Below are positions 7,824 through 16,171 of a DNA stretch of 44,099 nucleotides, piece by piece (positions within the stretch are counted from its first letter, which is position 1; the number at the start of each line of letters is the position of its first letter). The translations under genes and the position numbers were made by a program. The DNA is from Moraxella sp. (GTDB lineage: Bacteria > Pseudomonadota > Gammaproteobacteria > Pseudomonadales > Moraxellaceae). The notes below the pieces were generated by a model. It searched no databases, was not told the DNA's origin, and saw only the letters and a list, made by a program, of their open reading frames with translations. The stretch covers positions 1-44,099 of the forward strand of contig JAUMYZ010000011.1 in assembly GCA_030528385.1 (NCBI GenBank), read 5' to 3'.

Positions 7824-8186
7824 ATGCGCACTGACATGTTCCAACAAATTTTGGAAGACCTAAACAGCTCATCGGCAGACGTTGAAGCATCTGCCCTTAT
7901 CTCCACCGACGGTTTGATGATTGCTTCTGCCTTGCCAACCGGCATTGACGAAGACCGCGTGGGTGCGATGAGCGCAGCACTGTTGTCATTGGGCGACCGC
8001 GCCGGTAGCGAGCTTGGTCGTGGCAGCACTGACCGAGTTTTGGTACAAGGCGAAAAAGGCTATGTCATCATGACGTCGGCAGGCTCTGAAGCGGTTTTGA
8101 CCGTGATGGCAAAACCCAATGCCAAGCTAGGTTTGATTTTCCTAGACATTAAACGTGCTTCAGAAGCACTGTCAAAACTGCTCTAA
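7824..8186 (+). CDS. roadblock/LC7 domain protein (MglB/CvnB-like)
   Basis: The 120-residue single-domain protein has the roadblock/LC7 layout: N-terminal helix (MFQQILEDLN), strand pair VEASALISTDGLMIASALP, long helix VGAMSAALLSLGDRAGSEL, then strands DRVLVQGEKGYVIMTSAG and AVLTVMAKPNAKLGLIFLDI with a closing helix. Family members (MglB, CvnB) form dimers that bind and often regulate Ras-like GTPases. An AAGGG ribosome-binding site is seven bases before the ATG. It opens a same-strand cluster that also encodes a GTPase, its likely partner. The domain call is strong; GAP or scaffold activity is inferred. Confidence 0.9.
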   Translation: MRTDMFQQILEDLNSSSADVEASALISTDGLMIASALPTGIDEDRVGAMSAALLSLGDRAGSELGRGSTDRVLVQGEKGYVIMTSAGSEAVLTVMAKPNAKLGLIFLDIKRASEALSKLL

Positions 8187-8268
8187 AACGCACTGCCAAA
8201 AACCCAATCGCTACTGGTGATGTGTTTTTGGCACATTGCCAACGACAAATGATAAAGGAATCATTATC

Positions 8269-8754
8269 ATGACTCAACTATCCGATATGCAAAAACCAAG
8301 TGGTGAATGCAGCGAGCATACACTGACCTTTTTTGATGGCACAACGCGCACCGTTTATGACACAGGCGTGGAACGTCCTTTTCCAGATGGCAAACTCATC
8401 ATTTCACGCACCGACCTAGACGGCGTACTGACACACGTCAATGATGCTTTTGTTGAAATCAGTGGCTATCAAGAAGATGAGCTTATTGGCAAGCCCCAAC
8501 ACATCTTGCGCCACCCTGACATGCCCAGCCAAGCCTATGCCGACCTTTGGAATACTGTCAAAGCGGGCAAAAAATGGCATGGTTATGTCAAAAACTTATG
8601 CAAAGATGGCAGCCATTATTGGGTATATGCCACTGTCGTCCCCAATGTTCGCCGTGGCGAAACTGTTGGTTATACTTCTGTGCGTCGCAAACCATCACGC
8701 AGCAAAATTGAAGAAGCCAGCAAACAATATGCCGCCCTAAAAGGAGCAAACTGA
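8269..8754 (+). CDS. stand-alone Aer-type PAS domain protein, probably flavin-binding
   Basis: The start at 8269 is chosen for its AAGGA site nine bases upstream; an in-frame ATG at 8236 lacks one. The 161-residue product is almost entirely one PAS domain (about 45-140): ISRTDLDGVLTHVNDAF, EISGYQEDELIGKP, then RHPDMP at 81-86, ADLWNTVK and a VKN..KDG.HYWV stretch, ending in SVRRKPSR. This series closely resembles the FAD-binding PAS of the energy-taxis receptor Aer. Aer's HAMP and methyl-accepting parts are absent, so any output must go through partner proteins, plausibly the roadblock/GTPase pair encoded alongside. It ends one base before the next gene. Redox sensing and FAD are inferred. 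Confidence 0.85.
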   Translation: MTQLSDMQKPSGECSEHTLTFFDGTTRTVYDTGVERPFPDGKLIISRTDLDGVLTHVNDAFVEISGYQEDELIGKPQHILRHPDMPSQAYADLWNTVKAGKKWHGYVKNLCKDGSHYWVYATVVPNVRRGETVGYTSVRRKPSRSKIEEASKQYAALKGAN

Positions 8755-8755
8755 T

Positions 8756-9502
8756 ATGTCAAATCGTTTTGTTATCGCCCCTGATTTTCCACCAAATCTA
8801 TTTAGTGGCTGGTATACCCTAAACACCTTACTACAAAAGCGCTCAGATTTGTCCATTCACCTAGAGACACCCGCTTCGTCCCAAGAACAAACACAAATGA
8901 TTGCCCAAGGCGGCATTACACTGGTTTATGCCAACCCCTTTGACGCCGCCAAACTCATTCGCGAACAAGGCTACAAAGCCATCGCCCGCCCTGCTGGCAA
9001 ATCCGATGAAATGGTGATTGTCTCTGCTGCCAAAGGCAACATCAAAACTTTGGACGACCTAAAAGCTGGCGCAACCATCGTCATGGCAGACAACCGCGAT
9101 GTGAAGTTGATTGGTCTGCGTCTGTTAGAAGCGGTGGACTTGACCGAAAACGACGTCAAATTTGAGATTACCGAAACTTACCAAGCCGCTGCCAAACTGG
9201 TCGCCCAAGGTCAAGCAGACGCGGCGTTCTTTATCGCTGAGATTTATCATTCGCTGTCCAATCTGACCAAAATGCAGCTCAATGTGCTCATTGAAAGCGA
9301 CCTTGCTGACATCACCCACGTGCTGCTTGCCAAAGACGGCTTTGCAGACGCCAACAAAGTGCGCGATGTGTTATTGTCGCTCAAAGACGATGCCGATGGT
9401 CAATCGGTGTTAACCGAACTTGGTATGCCAAATGGCTTTGAAGCGGTCAGCGAAGAAGAAGCCGAGTTTATGATTGACCTAATGGAAACATTATTAGACT
9501 AA
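8756..9502 (+). CDS. PhnD/NMT1-type periplasmic-binding-fold protein without a signal peptide
   Basis: The 248-residue product resembles PhnD-type solute-binding proteins. It begins in the fold (VIAPDFPPNLFSGWYTLNTLLQ), has a 'binding lobe' stretch (GGITLVYANPFDAAKLIREQGYK), a domain-swap strand (DDLKAGATIVMADNRDVKLIG) and a second-lobe segment (AAAKLVAQGQADAAFFIAE). There is no hydrophobic leader or lipobox, so it should stay in the cytoplasm. The AAAGGAG site overlaps the PAS gene's end and the start is one base after its stop, so the two are surely co-translated. No ABC permease or ATPase is nearby. A role as an internal ligand sensor is inferred; its ligand is unknown. Confidence 0.8.
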   Translation: MSNRFVIAPDFPPNLFSGWYTLNTLLQKRSDLSIHLETPASSQEQTQMIAQGGITLVYANPFDAAKLIREQGYKAIARPAGKSDEMVIVSAAKGNIKTLDDLKAGATIVMADNRDVKLIGLRLLEAVDLTENDVKFEITETYQAAAKLVAQGQADAAFFIAEIYHSLSNLTKMQLNVLIESDLADITHVLLAKDGFADANKVRDVLLSLKDDADGQSVLTELGMPNGFEAVSEEEAEFMIDLMETLLD

Positions 9503-9538
9503 GCTGGCAACAACACCAGATGGCTTGTGGGGGAAATT

Positions 9539-10135
9539 ATGTCTGAATTACAAAGAACACCTATCGCTGTGCGTGAGCGTTATCGCCGCGCTTCTAGACG
9601 GGTATTAAACGCACCAACCACCACAAGCTATCACAGAGAACGCATTCGTATCGCCTTAAATTTTTTTGAGACCGAGCCCTTACAAGGGGCGTTGGCAGAC
9701 TATTTTTTTGGCTGCTGGTATGACATGCCATTTAGTGGACAAGCCATTTTAGAAGAAGTCAAAGAACGCCTGCCTGTACCAATCTATCAAGCCTTTTTCA
9801 AATGCACACACAAAAAAGACTATATTTGGTCAATCAGCCCGCTGGCCACCCGCTGGAGCGTGTTGGTAACGCCATCTTTGGACGTGCCCAGCCACAAACT
9901 GCGCACCAGCAGTGATACCGCTTGGTATGTCTCAGACAATGTCGTTGCCACCCTACTAAAAGCCCGCAACGAAAACAGCCCCACCCTTAGCCAAGCCGAA
10001 GACGATTTTTTGGAGCATTGTGTGGCATGTACCGACCGCATGGCGTTTATGATGGTGTGGTTTCGCTTAAATAAAGAAAACTGGCTATTTGATGAACGTT
10101 GGCTAAACTGTCGCAAAACCTTAGAAAAACAATAA
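9539..10135 (+). CDS. conserved-looking protein of unknown family in the roadblock/GTPase cluster
   Basis: The ATG at 9539 has a strong GGGGGA site six bases upstream; an in-frame GTG at 9527 is less likely. The 198-residue product is soluble, with no membrane segment or signal. It has a basic N-terminal region (RERYRRASRRVLNAP), aromatic-rich text (DYFFGCWYDMPF) and Cys residues (LEHCVACTDR, LNCRKT) that do not form a clear metal site. I recognise no domain. It follows the PhnD-like gene by 36 bases on the same strand and is presumably part of the same system. Confidence 0.7.
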   Translation: MSELQRTPIAVRERYRRASRRVLNAPTTTSYHRERIRIALNFFETEPLQGALADYFFGCWYDMPFSGQAILEEVKERLPVPIYQAFFKCTHKKDYIWSISPLATRWSVLVTPSLDVPSHKLRTSSDTAWYVSDNVVATLLKARNENSPTLSQAEDDFLEHCVACTDRMAFMMVWFRLNKENWLFDERWLNCRKTLEKQ

Positions 10136-10297
10136 ACCCATCGCCATCACATACTTTAGCCATACCAACATCACCAAACCAACCACCCGTTAGCAGACCA
10201 AATACCAATCAATGAATATTAAATGATACAATGACCGACCAATATAACGCGGCTATGTGCCATCAATGTATGAATTTTAATTTTTAAGGAATTCTTA

Positions 10298-11554
10298 ATG
10301 AAACTTTTATTTATTGGTTTTTCTGAGCAAAATGCCAATTTGTTAAGTTTTTTAATTCAACAAAATTTCACTCATATTGACTGTGTGTATGTTGAGCGCA
10401 ATTTGACACAAGACCTAAAATTTAGTCTGCCCATCATTCCCAACCAGCACAAAGACGCACAAGCGATGATTGTCAATCTTGACGGCGTTGGCATGCTCTC
10501 TTATCAGACACGCCACAAAGACAATTTGGAAAAGTACATCAAGCAGCTGCCCACGTTGCTGACCACGCGCATGGCAATTTATCCTTGGCAAGAATCGCTG
10601 GAGCAACACGCCAACATTTTTTATCTGCAAGCGCCCTACAACAAAGACAGCATGTTGTTTGTTTTGCATCAACTCATCAACTGCAGCAAACACATCTCAA
10701 GCACAACCACCAATGCCAATCTTACCAATGACGCCCCAACAGACCATCAAACCACCACCGTCATCACAGCCCACACCGACAAAAAACAATCGCTGTTTGA
10801 CAGTGCACTCATACAAGCACCCAACAACAAAGAACAAGCGCTGATTGACAAGGTACTGACCAAAAACTTTAACGCCGCCTACCAAACACCACTCATCAAA
10901 GAGTTTGGCAAAGTGTTTTTTCAAGAACAGCCCTTTATCCTAAGAGCCAGTCGCTATTATATGCTTGTGGACACCAACAGCAATCTTGCCGTCAGCACCA
11001 ACATTGCCAGAATGCTGGACTATTTTAGCGTCGCCAAAAACCATGAGCAATTTTCCAGCTCCATCACCATAGAAGTGTTAAGCAATGAACAATATTTGGC
11101 ACACCTACAAGAGCTTGAGCGCCTTGACGCCAAAAAATACGCATTAAATACCTTACTTTGGCAGATTTATCACGCCATCTTGCCCGATGAAATCCAAACT
11201 CAGGCACGAAACTTGCAGATTAAAGTTAAGTTTATGCCCAACTTTGCCAGCCTAGAAGATACGCCCAACTACACCCAAGCTGTGATTTCATCGTGTTTGT
11301 CCATACCCAAAACTTTGGATGAATTGTACATTATTTTTGGTGAAATCAAAGCAGAGCATATCAACCGTATTTTTTTATTGGCGGTCTTATCCAAGATTGT
11401 GGATTTGGACGTGTTGGCAACGCCAAGAACAGACAACCAAATTAGCATCAACCAAATCTTAAAGACACAGCACAAAAAGCAAAAAAACGACGGCGTAAAC
11501 AAAGCAACCAAGACAGGCTTTTTTAGACGTTTGCTTAAAAAATTGTCTTTATAA
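10298..11554 (+). CDS. unknown protein with a possible degenerate receiver-like N-terminus
   Basis: The 418-residue product has an AAGGA site seven bases before its ATG. Residues 1-130 have a receiver-like alternation (KLLFIGFSEQNANLLSFLIQ, then AMIVNLDGVGM, then IFYLQAPYNKDSMLFVLHQL), but the acidic pocket and Lys of true response regulators are not clear. Residues about 140-175 are Thr/Asn/Ala-rich and look like a linker. Residues 180-380 form a second region that I do not recognise (PFILRASRYYMLVDTNSNLAV...). The C-terminus is strongly basic (TKTGFFRRLLKKLSL), perhaps binding membrane or nucleic acid. A 162-base gap separates it from the gene before. It is 33 bases upstream of the GTPase gene. 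Confidence 0.7.
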   Translation: MKLLFIGFSEQNANLLSFLIQQNFTHIDCVYVERNLTQDLKFSLPIIPNQHKDAQAMIVNLDGVGMLSYQTRHKDNLEKYIKQLPTLLTTRMAIYPWQESLEQHANIFYLQAPYNKDSMLFVLHQLINCSKHISSTTTNANLTNDAPTDHQTTTVITAHTDKKQSLFDSALIQAPNNKEQALIDKVLTKNFNAAYQTPLIKEFGKVFFQEQPFILRASRYYMLVDTNSNLAVSTNIARMLDYFSVAKNHEQFSSSITIEVLSNEQYLAHLQELERLDAKKYALNTLLWQIYHAILPDEIQTQARNLQIKVKFMPNFASLEDTPNYTQAVISSCLSIPKTLDELYIIFGEIKAEHINRIFLLAVLSKIVDLDVLATPRTDNQISINQILKTQHKKQKNDGVNKATKTGFFRRLLKKLSL

Positions 11555-11587
11555 ACATCAATCATCTTGTCATCAATGGAGCAGTTC

Positions 11588-12136
11588 ATGCTAGACTTAC
11601 AAGAACTTAGTGCCAATACCTACAAACTCATCATCGCAGGCCCTGTGGGTGCTGGCAAAACAGCCGCCATCCGCTCGTTGTCGGACAAAGGCGTGGTTAC
11701 CACCGAAGAGATTGCTTCTGACGATGTCGGCAAAATAAAAAAAACCACCACCGTGGCGATGGACTATGGCGTGATGAAACTAGACAGCGGCGAACAAGTG
11801 CGCTTGTATGGCACGCCTGGTCAGCGTCGCTTTGATTTTATGTGGGAAATTCTTAGTGAAAATGCGCTGGGTCTGGTCTTACTGCTCAACGCCGAAGAAA
11901 GCGACCCTGTGGCAGATTTAGCGTATTATTTGGACAGTTTTCAACCACTAATTAAGGGCAGCGCTTTGGTGGTTGGGGTTACTCATGCCGAAAATGCTTC
12001 TTGGGATTTGCACCAAAAGTTGTCAGAATTTTTGGTCAATAAGGGCATGGCTGCCAACGTCAGCATGGTTGATGCCCGTGAACGTGAACAAATGCGTCAG
12101 TTGGTGCGCTCACTGGTTTATATGATTGCTGCTTAA
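11588..12136 (+). CDS. CvnD/MglA-type small GTPase
   Basis: I chose the ATG at 11588 for its TGGAG site; in-frame starts at 11567 (TTG) and 11576 have none. The 182-residue product has P-loop GPVGAGKT (18-25), a switch I-like KTTTVAMDYG (52-61), and G3 GTPGQRRFDFMW (75-86). These match the CvnD proteins of Streptomyces conservons and, more loosely, MglA. The G4 position reads VGVTHAEN instead of NKxD, as is common in that branch. It probably cycles between GTP and GDP forms in the cytoplasm, with the roadblock protein as partner. GTP rather than ATP preference is not provable from sequence. It is followed by a possible second roadblock gene after 50 bases. Confidence 0.88.
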   Translation: MLDLQELSANTYKLIIAGPVGAGKTAAIRSLSDKGVVTTEEIASDDVGKIKKTTTVAMDYGVMKLDSGEQVRLYGTPGQRRFDFMWEILSENALGLVLLLNAEESDPVADLAYYLDSFQPLIKGSALVVGVTHAENASWDLHQKLSEFLVNKGMAANVSMVDAREREQMRQLVRSLVYMIAA

Positions 12137-12186
12137 TTTTGCCAAGAACAGCCATCAACAGACGCAACGTTTTTGGATAACCCATC

Positions 12187-12801
12187 ATGCACACACATTT
12201 TACCGACGATTCGTACATCATTTTAACGCCCGCTGGCGTATTTGAAGCCTTTGCCCAAGTCAAACCCAACGAACAACAACAAGCCCTGCAAGAGCTGATT
12301 TCTGGCAAATCCTGCCTGCAAGTGTCAACTTGGACAAATAAATATTATCACGACTGGCTAGAAGACTTTGTAGGCAATGGTTGGGTTGAGTTGTTAAGCA
12401 CCCCGCTAAGCGCACCCAATTTGCCTTTGGATAAGTTTTTGCCCTATGTGGTCGCCAGTTTGTCAGGCACGCGCCGAGCAGCGATTGGTTCAAACGAAGG
12501 TTTTTGTTTGGCGCGCATTGGTTATACCCAAGAAGAAGCCGACACCTTGAGTGTGGCAGCGGCAGACTTTTTTGACTTTTTGAACCGTCAGCAGCAACGC
12601 GGCTGGGTCATCAAAGAACAAGCGGTGTCATTTTTTGGACAAGTGGATTTATTGATGCCCACAACCAGCTTTGTGTTCTTGTGGATTGATGGCAGCGGCT
12701 ACGTGCTGATTTTGGACAGCGAACCACTCACCAACAACCGTGCTTTTGTGGAGCTGATTTGGGCAATCAAAACTTCGGGGCTAAAATTTGAAACTGAATA
12801 A
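12187..12801 (+). CDS. unknown protein with a possible divergent roadblock-like C-terminal domain
   Basis: The 204-residue product has two parts. Residues 1-75 may be a small helical or winged-helix region (YIILTPAGVFEAFAQVKPNE, then YYHDWLEDFVGNGWVELL). Residues 90-204 have a strand-helix-strand order like roadblock/LC7: RRAAIGSNEGFCLARIGYTQ, helix DTLSVAAADFFDFLNRQQQR, then SFVFLWIDGSGYVLILDSE and a last helix. This lines up by eye with the protein encoded at 7824. It is the last same-strand gene of the cluster. The roadblock-like reading is inference and needs structure comparison. Confidence 0.65.
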   Translation: MHTHFTDDSYIILTPAGVFEAFAQVKPNEQQQALQELISGKSCLQVSTWTNKYYHDWLEDFVGNGWVELLSTPLSAPNLPLDKFLPYVVASLSGTRRAAIGSNEGFCLARIGYTQEEADTLSVAAADFFDFLNRQQQRGWVIKEQAVSFFGQVDLLMPTTSFVFLWIDGSGYVLILDSEPLTNNRAFVELIWAIKTSGLKFETE

Positions 12802-13175: not shown

Positions 13176-14252
13176 TCAGCTTGCCAGTCTCATATCGCCC
13201 AGCTGTATTTTACCAGTTTTGTATAGCCAAAGGCTCACCAGCCAAGCCACCAAGGCAGGCACGATGAGCATCAGCAGCACAATCGCCAGCCACATCATTG
13301 TCGGCGACATCACGGTGCTACTGGCTTCTAGCACTGCAAACACCCCCACCAAACCTGCTGTGCCCATACCCGCCCCACTGGCTGAGCAGTGCAGTCCAAA
13401 CACCACCGTTGCCAAAGGCCCCACAATGGCACTTGCCACCACCGCAGGCAGTAGGATAATGGGTTTTTTAAAGATGTTGGGAATTTGTAGCATGCTTGTA
13501 CCAAGTCCTTGGGCAATAAGACCACTCACACCATTATCCCTAAAACTTGCCACCGCAAAGCCCACCATATGAGCGGCACAGCCAACCACTGCCGCCCCAC
13601 CTGCCAAACCGTTTAGACCGATGGCGATACAAATTGCCGCACTGCTGGTTGGCATGGTAAGCAGCAGTCCCACCACCACCGAGATAATCAGCCCCATCAA
13701 AAACGGCTGCAACTCAGTGGCTTCTTTAATCGCCAAACCAATCCATTCTACCATCGTTACCACAGGCGGACAAAGCCACGCACACACCGCCAACGCCACC
13801 AAAAACATCACCAGCGGCACCAGCAAAATGTCCAGCTTGGTTTTGCCAGCGACACGCATTGCCACCACATAAGACAGCACGGTGGTCAAATAAGCAGCAA
13901 TGGGATTGCCCGGCAGTGCCTTAAAGGTCAGCGGCACATCACCTGCAGTTAAAATCACCCCTGACATGAGCACCCCAGAATGCGCCCCCATCATACCGAC
14001 CACAAGGCTACTTAGCACCACCAAGGTTGGGGCTTTGAGATAATAAGCAATGCCCACACCAATCCCCGCCCCCATCAGCATGCCCGCCAATTTGCCGATG
14101 TTGATAAGCACAGGCAAATCCAACCATGTGCCAATCTGTGAGATAATCAGCCCTGCAATCAAGGTAACAAACAGCCCTTGTGCCATGCCTGTAAAGGCGT
14201 CTATTAGGTATTTGTGGGAAAGACCTTTTATGCTTAACGTATCACTCATCAT
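13176..14252 (-). CDS. PTS EIIC-like multispanning membrane protein
   Basis: The 358-residue protein is hydrophobic throughout, with about eight to ten membrane segments and the loop FKALPGNPIAAYLTTV. This is the PTS_EIIC_2 family, a set of EIIC-like inner-membrane proteins usually encoded without EIIA or EIIB. None is present here, so sugar phosphotransfer cannot be assumed and the substrate is unknown. The start could be either of two adjacent ATGs (14252 or 14249); an AGGA site precedes both. The gene is alone, ends at a clear hairpin, and faces the roadblock cluster. Confidence 0.8.
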   Translation of the reverse strand: MMSDTLSIKGLSHKYLIDAFTGMAQGLFVTLIAGLIISQIGTWLDLPVLINIGKLAGMLMGAGIGVGIAYYLKAPTLVVLSSLVVGMMGAHSGVLMSGVILTAGDVPLTFKALPGNPIAAYLTTVLSYVVAMRVAGKTKLDILLVPLVMFLVALAVCAWLCPPVVTMVEWIGLAIKEATELQPFLMGLIISVVVGLLLTMPTSSAAICIAIGLNGLAGGAAVVGCAAHMVGFAVASFRDNGVSGLIAQGLGTSMLQIPNIFKKPIILLPAVVASAIVGPLATVVFGLHCSASGAGMGTAGLVGVFAVLEASSTVMSPTMMWLAIVLLMLIVPALVAWLVSLWLYKTGKIQLGDMRLAS

Positions 14253-14488: not shown

Positions 14489-16171
14489 TTAGCTCAATTG
14501 CCAAACATCACAAATCAGTTTTGCCAAACGTTCGTTATTTCTAAAAATATCATCATCTGTCCACTCAGGTTTTTGCAGAATTGGTTTGGCAATATGCAAA
14601 TGATTGTGTGCCAATAAACCTTTCATTTTACCCTTACCATGAACACGTTCATACCAAGTTGCATCTTTTAGGGCATTATTAAGTTTTTGGGGCGTAATGG
14701 TCATATTTCCTAAGGTTTTAACTGCGATTTGGCGTGTTTGCTCATCTAAGGGACGAGACCAGTTTTTTTGCCATTTGAGTGGCATAAAATAGTCTGCTGA
14801 ATATTTATCAAAACCATATAAATTTTCAAGACTTTGTGCTTGCCGTTTCATATTATCCAGCAAATAAAAAACGAGCAACGCTCTTTTTTGAGTTTGAGAT
14901 TTATTTTTTAATAAGTATGTAATTTCGTTGTCGGTTGGTACATAATGCAAATGCGTGTTTTTATACCCCATAAAGTGAATTTTTAAGGCTTTGGCAGAAA
15001 TGATATTACCAACAATCAATCTATTACCAAATAATTCGGCATAATCTTTTGCAATCAATGTGCCCTTATCAATACCCAGCATACGCCGTATTAAATAACT
15101 TTCTAGGATAAATAATACCTTATCACGCTCATCAGGGTTTTGTTCTAGTTCAGCAAGTATAAAAATAACATAAGGAATAATAGAGAATAAATTACCTTCA
15201 AATATGATTAAATTTATTCTGTCCATTTGTGTGGATAGACGTTCTTTTTTAATATTAGGATTAAAATTTTTTCTAAACAGATTGGCATAATGTTCCATGT
15301 CCTGCAAAAACACTTCTTTATCATCAATATAAGCCATCAGTTTTTTATAGGAGCAAAATAAATTAACACTCTGATTAAATCCCTTTTTTATATGACTGGG
15401 CAAATGTTTTGATTTAATCTGCAAAAAAGCAAACAAAAATATATCTATTAAATTTTTGTTATCCTTGCTATCAGTTGAAATATCCCAATACTCTATTGTT
15501 TCTGTATCTTTTTCAAAAATATCTTGCCAATATTTTTTATAAAAATCCAACTCATCGGTTTTAAATAGTAAATTTTTTATCAGTTCTGCCGATGTTAAAC
15601 GAACGCCTGATGAATTTATGGTATCAAAAATCTGCTGTTCATTTTCATGTTCATATAAATAAATCCCAACAAAAGTAATACGTTTAGATAAAATGGAAAT
15701 ATCCAGTCTATCGGCATCTATATTTTCTTTAAAATAATTAAAACATTCTTCTATTTTATTTCTTGGGTTATCAATCTCTTGTAATATAGCCAAATTTAAA
15801 ATTAGCTCAAAAGTTTTTCTGTCATTTTTATTATGTCTAATGATTGATTTATTATCATCAATCGTTTTAAACATATTGTCAAATCTATTATTATCACCCT
15901 TTAATAAAGACAAAACTTTAAAAAACAGCACCAAAGTCGTTAAACGCTGCTGTCCATCAATCACCATTTTATTTTTAATCGTTTCACTTTCGTCTTTTAA
16001 GATGACTGAACCCAGAAAAAACTCTTGGTCGCTGTCAGAAATTTCATACATATCACCTAAAAACCGCTCCCACTCTTCTTCGCCCCACACATAAGAACGT
16101 TGAAAAAATGGAATATCCAAATGCCAGTTTCTATCAAAAATTGAACTAATTGTTCGTTTACCTGCGTCCAT
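14489..16171 (-). CDS. DUF262 (GmrSD-like) protein with altered C-terminal nuclease motif
   Basis: The 560-residue product opens with the DUF262 signatures PFFQRSYVWG (21-30) and DGQQRLTT (72-79), which in GmrS/BrxU-type proteins belong to a ParB-like NTPase or nuclease domain. The C-terminal part resembles DUF1524: the GNMTITPQKLNNAL stretch is present. Where that family has an EH.xPQ.W histidine motif, this protein reads DYFMPLKW, so the catalytic His looks replaced by Tyr. The DNA is clearly more AT-rich than its neighbours, suggesting horizontal transfer. An AAGGA site precedes the ATG. No methyltransferase or other restriction gene is adjacent. Defence against modified phage DNA is a family-based guess. 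Confidence 0.8.
   Translation of the reverse strand: MDAGKRTISSIFDRNWHLDIPFFQRSYVWGEEEWERFLGDMYEISDSDQEFFLGSVILKDESETIKNKMVIDGQQRLTTLVLFFKVLSLLKGDNNRFDNMFKTIDDNKSIIRHNKNDRKTFELILNLAILQEIDNPRNKIEECFNYFKENIDADRLDISILSKRITFVGIYLYEHENEQQIFDTINSSGVRLTSAELIKNLLFKTDELDFYKKYWQDIFEKDTETIEYWDISTDSKDNKNLIDIFLFAFLQIKSKHLPSHIKKGFNQSVNLFCSYKKLMAYIDDKEVFLQDMEHYANLFRKNFNPNIKKERLSTQMDRINLIIFEGNLFSIIPYVIFILAELEQNPDERDKVLFILESYLIRRMLGIDKGTLIAKDYAELFGNRLIVGNIISAKALKIHFMGYKNTHLHYVPTDNEITYLLKNKSQTQKRALLVFYLLDNMKRQAQSLENLYGFDKYSADYFMPLKWQKNWSRPLDEQTRQIAVKTLGNMTITPQKLNNALKDATWYERVHGKGKMKGLLAHNHLHIAKPILQKPEWTDDDIFRNNERLAKLICDVWQLS

Follow-up and report, generated by a model that had tools for sequence, protein, structure and literature searches.

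We analysed a 44,099-nucleotide stretch of a Moraxella sp. genome (contig JAUMYZ010000011.1; this whole stretch is hereafter the window), in which seven adjoining genes, P1 to P7, encode a roadblock/LC7 protein, a stand-alone PAS protein, a PhnD-type protein, a helical protein, a protein with a receiver-like domain, a small Ras-like GTPase and a second, divergent roadblock protein, respectively. The seven genes are co-conserved and form one system, which is common in whole or in part to many Gammaproteobacteria. As judged from the motifs of P6 and the fold of P5, its core of GTPase, P5 and two roadblock proteins corresponds to the Group 3 MglA systems of the literature; new here are P4, P2 and P3 as regular members of the system, its sensor and polarity neighbours, and the absence of its GTPase from several lineages in which both roadblock proteins persist. 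Bacterial Ras-like GTPase modules set front-rear polarity in Myxococcus. For the seven genes, we give about an even chance to a redox-gated polarity and type IV pilus switch of the Group 3 MglA type, with redox and ligand inputs built in.

Conservation and order of the seven genes

An order-level search for the roadblock protein identified 35 carriers among 293 genomes. In the 20 neighbourhoods fetched, the same genes surround the P1-type matches, and other roadblock matches stand in unrelated pairs. A genome of the same genus (L031) has all seven genes in identical order, two other families show the order P4-P5-P6-P7-P1-P2-P3 (f18, locus L037; f45, L043), a third shows it without a recognised P4 (f14, L036), and the f37 genomes (L038-L042) carry this common order minus the GTPase. 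The named-genome set comprised the best 80 of at least 527 relatives of the P1 profile, that is, the best matches to one query and not a random draw. Its carriers include Thiothrix, Leucothrix, Methylococcales, Amphritea, Neptuniibacter, Marinobacterium, tubeworm symbionts and one member of Burkholderiaceae; Methylomonas lenta (L130), which is cultivated, carries all seven genes. The orders 4-5-6-7-1-2-3 (23 loci), 4-5-6-7-1 (21) and 4-5-7-1-2-3 (19) predominated among these 80 loci, followed by minor variants (12) and P1 alone (5), and the GTPase was present in 53.

Within the family of the window, 67 of 199 genomes gave a P1 match at E <= 1e-20. Among 20 places that we chose from this family, one of which is a distant second P1 copy, 11 have the order 1-2-3-4-5-6-7, six have 1-2-3-4-7, two have P1 only (a contig end and the distant second copy) and one is decayed. 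The seven-gene arrangement in the same order at 11 of 20 places is therefore far beyond chance; it is a circular permutation of the common P4-P5-P6-P7-P1(-P2-P3). Sampling was uneven overall, the class-wide sample being the even one; there, 44 of 369 genomes, with that of the window among them, gave a P1 match at E <= 1e-30. Of the 48 places in this sample 40 were fetched, and 35 of these have at least one further part, as do 75 of the 80 named loci. The genes do stay together in related genomes, and the original prediction of a single signalling unit thus withstands the test of a conserved neighbourhood that it had set itself. An accidental neighbourhood of unrelated genes, to which the differing gene content among lineages might point, is refuted by the order tallies over the 140 loci scanned for gene order and neighbours, and we regard it as vanishingly improbable.

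All seven open reading frames predicted for positions 7824-12801 were found on the + strand (Table 1), with a gap of 162 bp between P4 and P5 and short gaps elsewhere in the set. The window genome (2.05 Mb, 20 contigs) has P1 as its sole Pfam roadblock match and, by profile search, P6 as its sole GTPase match. Beyond P7, the - strand encodes a membrane protein (13176-14252) and a 560-aa protein, DUF262-type by eye (14489-16171). At one locus of the window family, L179 (genome G319), the cluster has decayed: its P1 carries an internal stop, P4 and P7 remain, and P2, P3, P5 and P6 were not found.

Table 1. Positions of the seven genes in the window and basis of their assignment
Gene	Product	Position	Strand	Basis
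P1	Roadblock/LC7 protein (MglB/CvnB-like), 120 aa	7824..8186	+	Pfam, 14-row alignment, solved-structure relatives
P2	Stand-alone PAS protein, Aer (aerotaxis receptor) type, 161 aa	8269..8754	+	PDB profile matches, invariant motif
P3	PhnD/phosphonate-type solute-binding fold, 248 aa	8756..9502	+	Pfam PF12974, 12-row alignment
P4	Almost all-helical protein, possibly TPR/HAT-like, 198 aa	9539..10135	+	
P5	Receiver-like N-terminal domain, disordered linker, C-terminal domain, basic C-terminal helix	10298..11554	+	
P6	Small Ras-like GTPase, Group 3 MglA type	11567..12136	+	Motif counts (65 family members), tree
P7	Small N-terminal domain and divergent roadblock domain, 204 aa	12187..12801	+	Pfam, profile searches

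GTPase, roadblock proteins and P5

As described in the text of Wuichet and Sogaard-Andersen (2014; PMC4316618), Group 3 MglA systems occur almost only in beta- and gamma-Proteobacteria and comprise one or two MglB proteins, a GTPase marked by GTPGQ, Thr for Arg in G2, an aberrant G4 and DAR in G5, and a partner with a receiver-like N-terminus, a variable linker and a winged-helix C-terminus. P6 matches the P-loop/GTPase profile ATP_bind_1 (E 2.9e-11) and carries GPVGAGKT, TTVAMD, GTPGQ and DAR. It reads YGTPGQ, KKTTTVAMD, with Thr in G2 where Group 1 has Arg, VTHAEN in G4, off the [NT]KxD pattern, and VDARE in G5, and so resembles the Group 3 GTPases at each of these positions. The motifs TTTVAMD and GTPGQ.RF.FMW are present as first noted, and the pairing of a CvnD/MglA-type GTPase with a roadblock protein is confirmed by the Robl_LC7 match of P1 and these GTPase motifs. 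Over 65 GTPases of the family, GTPGQ is nearly universal, with GTPGE in at least three, and TRMD is the commonest G4, with TKTD kept in at least three. In a tree of these 65 and four MglA-like proteins from other roadblock pairs, the four fall on one side of a branch, with long-branch warnings; the tree holds only loci of the present analysis, without named Group references.

The likeness to Group 3 extends to the beta/gamma-proteobacterial spread and to the two roadblock proteins, of which P7 adjoins the GTPase and P1 lies in the same cluster. P1 matches Pfam Robl_LC7 (E 3.9e-18), carries an Asp-Gly pair (D29 G30) and is well conserved (77% mean column identity over 14 rows); the structure-solved relatives of its profile include CvnB5 and MglB. 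P7 gave a sub-threshold match to Robl_LC7 (E 0.0047). Its standing as a possible second roadblock protein, suggested earlier, is supported by Robl_LC7 matches at E <= 0.05 in 14 of 27 members of its family (best 0.0018) and by Streptomyces CvnB5 as the top solved structure for its profile (3leq, E 1.5e-4); a direct profile-profile comparison of P7 with P1 was weak (probability 0.7, E 0.083). Across families, the homology of P7, like that of P4, comes from iterated profiles. Some genomes of the window genus have a second, more distant P1-like roadblock gene with the other parts not nearby (L180 in G359:C9; L049 in G196:C1), and an orphan P1 copy at L199:6270-7157 has as its neighbour a 158-aa protein that matches nothing in Pfam at E <= 0.01.

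Neither P4 nor P5 has a Pfam match at E <= 1, in keeping with their first description as unknown proteins, and structures were predicted for both. P5 turned out to be less obscure than that description implied: residues 1-139 have the receiver-like fold of the Group 3 partner, a disordered linker (about 135-175) leads on to a C-terminal domain, the protein ends in a basic amphipathic helix (about 408-417), and the gene adjoins the GTPase gene. No solved structure listed matches the C-terminal part, the matches spanning only residues 1 to about 140, and the window P5 is linked to P5 of other families through position and fold, not sequence. By eye, a basic amphipathic tail (mean net charge +5.1 over the last 25 residues) is seen in all 52 P5 proteins of the named set that have a GTPase in their cluster, and in none of the 20 without one. 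This tail presumably resembles membrane anchors such as that of MinD. The P5 frames at L164:8515-9666 and L173:8731-10098 stop before or inside the conserved tail, by frameshift, assembly error or real loss, and the linker of the P5 homologue at L042:8089-9927 is built of many head-to-tail EAERLEA-type repeats.

Putative inputs, neighbouring genes and the proposed switch

P2 matches Pfam PAS_3 (E 6.1e-17), and the top PDB matches of its profile are the PAS domains of aerotaxis receptors (8dik, E 7.2e-45; 31cj, E 1.2e-43), which confirms its reading as an Aer-type protein. RHPDMP is invariant in all 12 rows of the family alignment, and the Pfam scan of the 161-aa, PAS-only protein detected no MCP signalling domain. 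P3 matches Pfam Phosphonate-bd PF12974 (E 1.9e-36) and has an invariant C-terminus, EFMIDL..TL. It begins at the first strand of the fold in 12 of 12 rows of an alignment read by eye, without a signal-peptide program, and no export signal is visible; the fold and the lack of an export signal are both as originally predicted. P2 and P3 co-occur, with both in 49 of the 80 named loci, P2 alone in one (a short contig), P3 alone in none and both undetected in 30. Together they are optional parts of the system. Four loci (L114:2068-2787, L118:3457-4176, L125:7708-8445 and L184:6484-7218) encode a second PhnD-like protein, its gene lying between P1 and the GTPase/P7 part; for L114 the fold is confirmed by Pfam.

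Other sensor genes adjoin P1 in relatives of the window. In 11 of the 140 loci a protoglobin gene is found on the strand of P1 and no more than 170 bp from it, at some of these loci in the space between P7 and P1; two loci have a CZB gene placed as close on that strand. Pfam confirmed the protoglobin in all four tested (L076, L087, L116, L187) and CZB in both tested (L097, L189). L195 carries protoglobin together with PAS and PhnD, and protoglobin is therefore not always a swap. At L105 and L126, two additional copies of P1 are preceded by another kind of PAS protein. L216:5468-9361 encodes a fusion of an AAA ATPase with a P1-like roadblock domain, and behind it an ODP-type di-iron protein (E 3.8e-70) and an OmpA protein; this is perhaps a separate system in which the ATPase replaces the GTPase. 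A membrane protein in the same stretch has an end that is roadblock-like by eye.

Polarity genes are also found beside the cluster in some lineages. A FimV-like gene lies downstream in 25 of the 140 loci (on the other strand in L103 and L109) and a bactofilin gene upstream, beyond P4, in 25, two locus pairs being duplicates in each case. In three Leucothrix-type loci (L064, L067, L078), P1 and the FimV-like frame share 4 bp. All five FimV-like proteins tested passed the NCBIfam FimV_Cterm cut-off, one of them also that of FimV_core, and the bactofilin of L060 passed Pfam (E 1.5e-24). This linkage ties the systems to FimV/HubP, a main polar organiser of Gammaproteobacteria. The window genome itself has one FimV-core gene, on another contig, and three PilT-family genes (type IV pilus retraction) over cut-off.

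In the switch that we propose, P2, with a flavin-type PAS domain that would bind flavin, may sense redox state or oxygen and act on P1, on which P3, as a cytoplasmic PhnD-type protein, would act after sensing a small molecule. P1, the canonical roadblock protein with its Asp-Gly pair, and P7, the divergent one with an extra N-terminal domain, would then control the GTP/GDP cycle of P6. P5, tethered to the membrane through its tail, would serve as a scaffold or effector that passes the state of P6 to the pole, rather than as a DNA-binding regulator, and P4 as a helical adaptor. All physical interactions in this scheme are ones that we infer. Its output would be the placement or activity of a pole organised by FimV/HubP, most likely of type IV pili. 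With sensor genes inside the operon, and oxygen and redox sensor genes beside the same roadblock gene in relatives, a direct drive from sensor to roadblock and GTPase without chemoreceptors becomes a testable question. More tentatively, and with somewhat less confidence than we place in the switch, P1-type roadblock proteins may serve quite generally as a socket into which soluble, chemoreceptor-type sensors fit (flavin PAS, haem protoglobin, zinc CZB, di-iron ODP), and hence give Gammaproteobacteria a second route, independent of CheA, from oxygen and redox state to polarity and pili, with the Ras-like GTPase or, in the one fusion, the AAA ATPase as an exchangeable NTPase output.

Several observations weigh against the switch. 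PAS and PhnD are missing from 25 of the 53 GTPase-bearing named loci; in 20 of them the sequence runs on for at least 1.7 kb beyond P1, in five it ends within 1.7 kb, and the absence is firm for the 20. FimV and bactofilin neighbours, which come mainly from Thiotrichales-type lineages, were seen in none of the 20 window-family loci. The window-family GTPases stand on a long branch (1.97) of the tree. The membrane tail of P5 is deduced from composition only, and it is kept in the GTPase-less clusters L184, L200, L201 and L214. For the C-terminus of the Group 3 partner, Phyre2 supports a winged helix-turn-helix, and the 2014 authors suggested control of transcription (PMC4316618, text). This, together with the supported receiver fold of P5, favours a G-protein pathway in which the GTPase and roadblock proteins control P5 as a receiver and winged-helix DNA-binding protein. 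Against it stand the basic amphipathic ends of all 52 GTPase-linked P5 proteins and the FimV/HubP and bactofilin neighbours in some lineages, and we hold such a pathway to be improbable. Slightly less probable again is aerotaxis-like sensing that feeds a single PilJ/Chp-type chemoreceptor pathway, with P2 as a detached Aer input and the roadblock and GTPase proteins as a regulator. The window genome does have one MCP-signal protein (708-aa frame) alongside its pilus retraction genes, and the Pfam-named alternative neighbours of P1 are chemoreceptor-type sensory domains; however, the 20 neighbour families that recur at the 80 loci include, by eye, no chemotaxis gene, and P2 is without the MCP domain through which Aer signals.

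The GTPase is an optional part of the system: 20 named loci (Amphritea, Neptuniibacter and relatives) lack it, with P5 and P7 spaced by at most 110 bp, and it is absent from L184, L200 and L201, where P5 and its tail are kept. Profile searches detected no MglA-like GTPase genome-wide in G216, G037, G278, G074, G156, G238, G624, G579 and G794, and only a marginal 20.8-bit match in G675; this too counts against the switch, since P1 persists in these genomes, and P7 in all but G675, and the roadblock pair must therefore act without the GTPase too. A distant GTPase (35-38% identical) is encoded elsewhere in the genomes G236, G154 and G276 of genus g3, and a distant one also in G258, G177 and G198 of f37. 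The whole genomes that keep the cluster with no detected MglA-like GTPase, and the conservation of P1 in GTPase-less lineages, which equals that of others (75-83% identical to a GTPase-bearing relative), would fit a roadblock-centred scaffold, in which the sensors and P4/P5 assemble on a Ragulator-like platform made of P1 and P7 and the GTPase is only an optional client. On the other side, the GTPase adjoins P7 in the order strings and is present in those 53 named loci, and in the window family P5 and P6 are jointly absent from 10 loci that keep P4 and P7 (nine of genus g3 and one of g122; 11 with the decayed L179, of g122). This joint absence suggests that P5 and P6 work together. We consider the scaffold unlikely, if the best placed of these alternatives, and the lineages with both roadblock proteins and no GTPase offer natural knockouts for a roadblock-only function.

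Comparison with known systems

Compared with the Group 3 MglA systems, the set described here has P4, the Aer-like PAS protein P2 and the cytoplasmic PhnD protein P3 as extra members, a permuted order in the window family, protoglobin or CZB beside P1 elsewhere, and clusters without the GTPase. The passages of the 2014 text covered here (PMC4316618) make no mention of the extra members, the permutation, the sensor neighbours or the clusters without GTPase. The original prediction had named no characterised version of the exact set. This holds in that our literature searches, confined for the 2014 paper to passages of its text, turned up no study that names the seven genes as one system; it fails for the core, which is known as Group 3 MglA.

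The earlier likening to Streptomyces conservons (CvnABCD, Group 2), with sensors replacing the kinase, did not stand. The two share a roadblock protein and a small GTPase with GTPGQ and DAR, and the profiles of both P1 and P7 match CvnB5, but the GTPase and its partner fit Group 3. Neither a histidine kinase (CvnA) nor DUF742 (CvnC) is among the Pfam matches of the seven proteins, as had been noted from the start, nor does NxFD occur in G4 of P6, and membership in Group 2 was rejected on these grounds. The Group 1 module of Myxococcus (MglA-MglB-RomR/FrzS) likewise combines a GTPase, roadblock proteins and a receiver-domain protein, with polarity and type IV pili as its output. Here, the genes stand in one operon with sensors, and Group 1 membership (Myxococcus, Thermus) was rejected for P6, which has GTPGQ and Thr in place of TVPGQ and the Arg finger.

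Among the sensors, P2 resembles Aer of the E. coli type in the invariant RHPDMP and in profile matches to Aer structures along the whole PAS domain, but differs in standing alone, without a membrane or signalling domain. P3 shares the Phosphonate-bd fold with the PhnD binding protein of ABC transporters, without its visible export signal. HGbRL of Methylacidiphilum, as described in the text of its report, combines a haem globin with a roadblock domain (PMC4476040). A haem globin sensor is coupled to a roadblock in both cases; HGbRL is a single fused protein with another globin type, whereas the present genes are separate and adjoining, and occur in relatives, not in the window.

The closest genetic comparison comes from Snodgrassella, for which the text of PMC11112851 describes a Group 3 operon with one mglA and two coupled mglB genes and, at another site, a 121-aa orphan mglB. 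Mutants of the orphan mglB formed motile flares and spread differently in soft-agar colonies, and the authors read the flares as altered type IV pilus-dependent motility; the mutants also gained in colonising a non-native host gut, and the authors further report that all three mglB genes were beneficial in earlier transposon data (PMC11112851). By its length and family, P1 likely corresponds to a Snodgrassella mglB.

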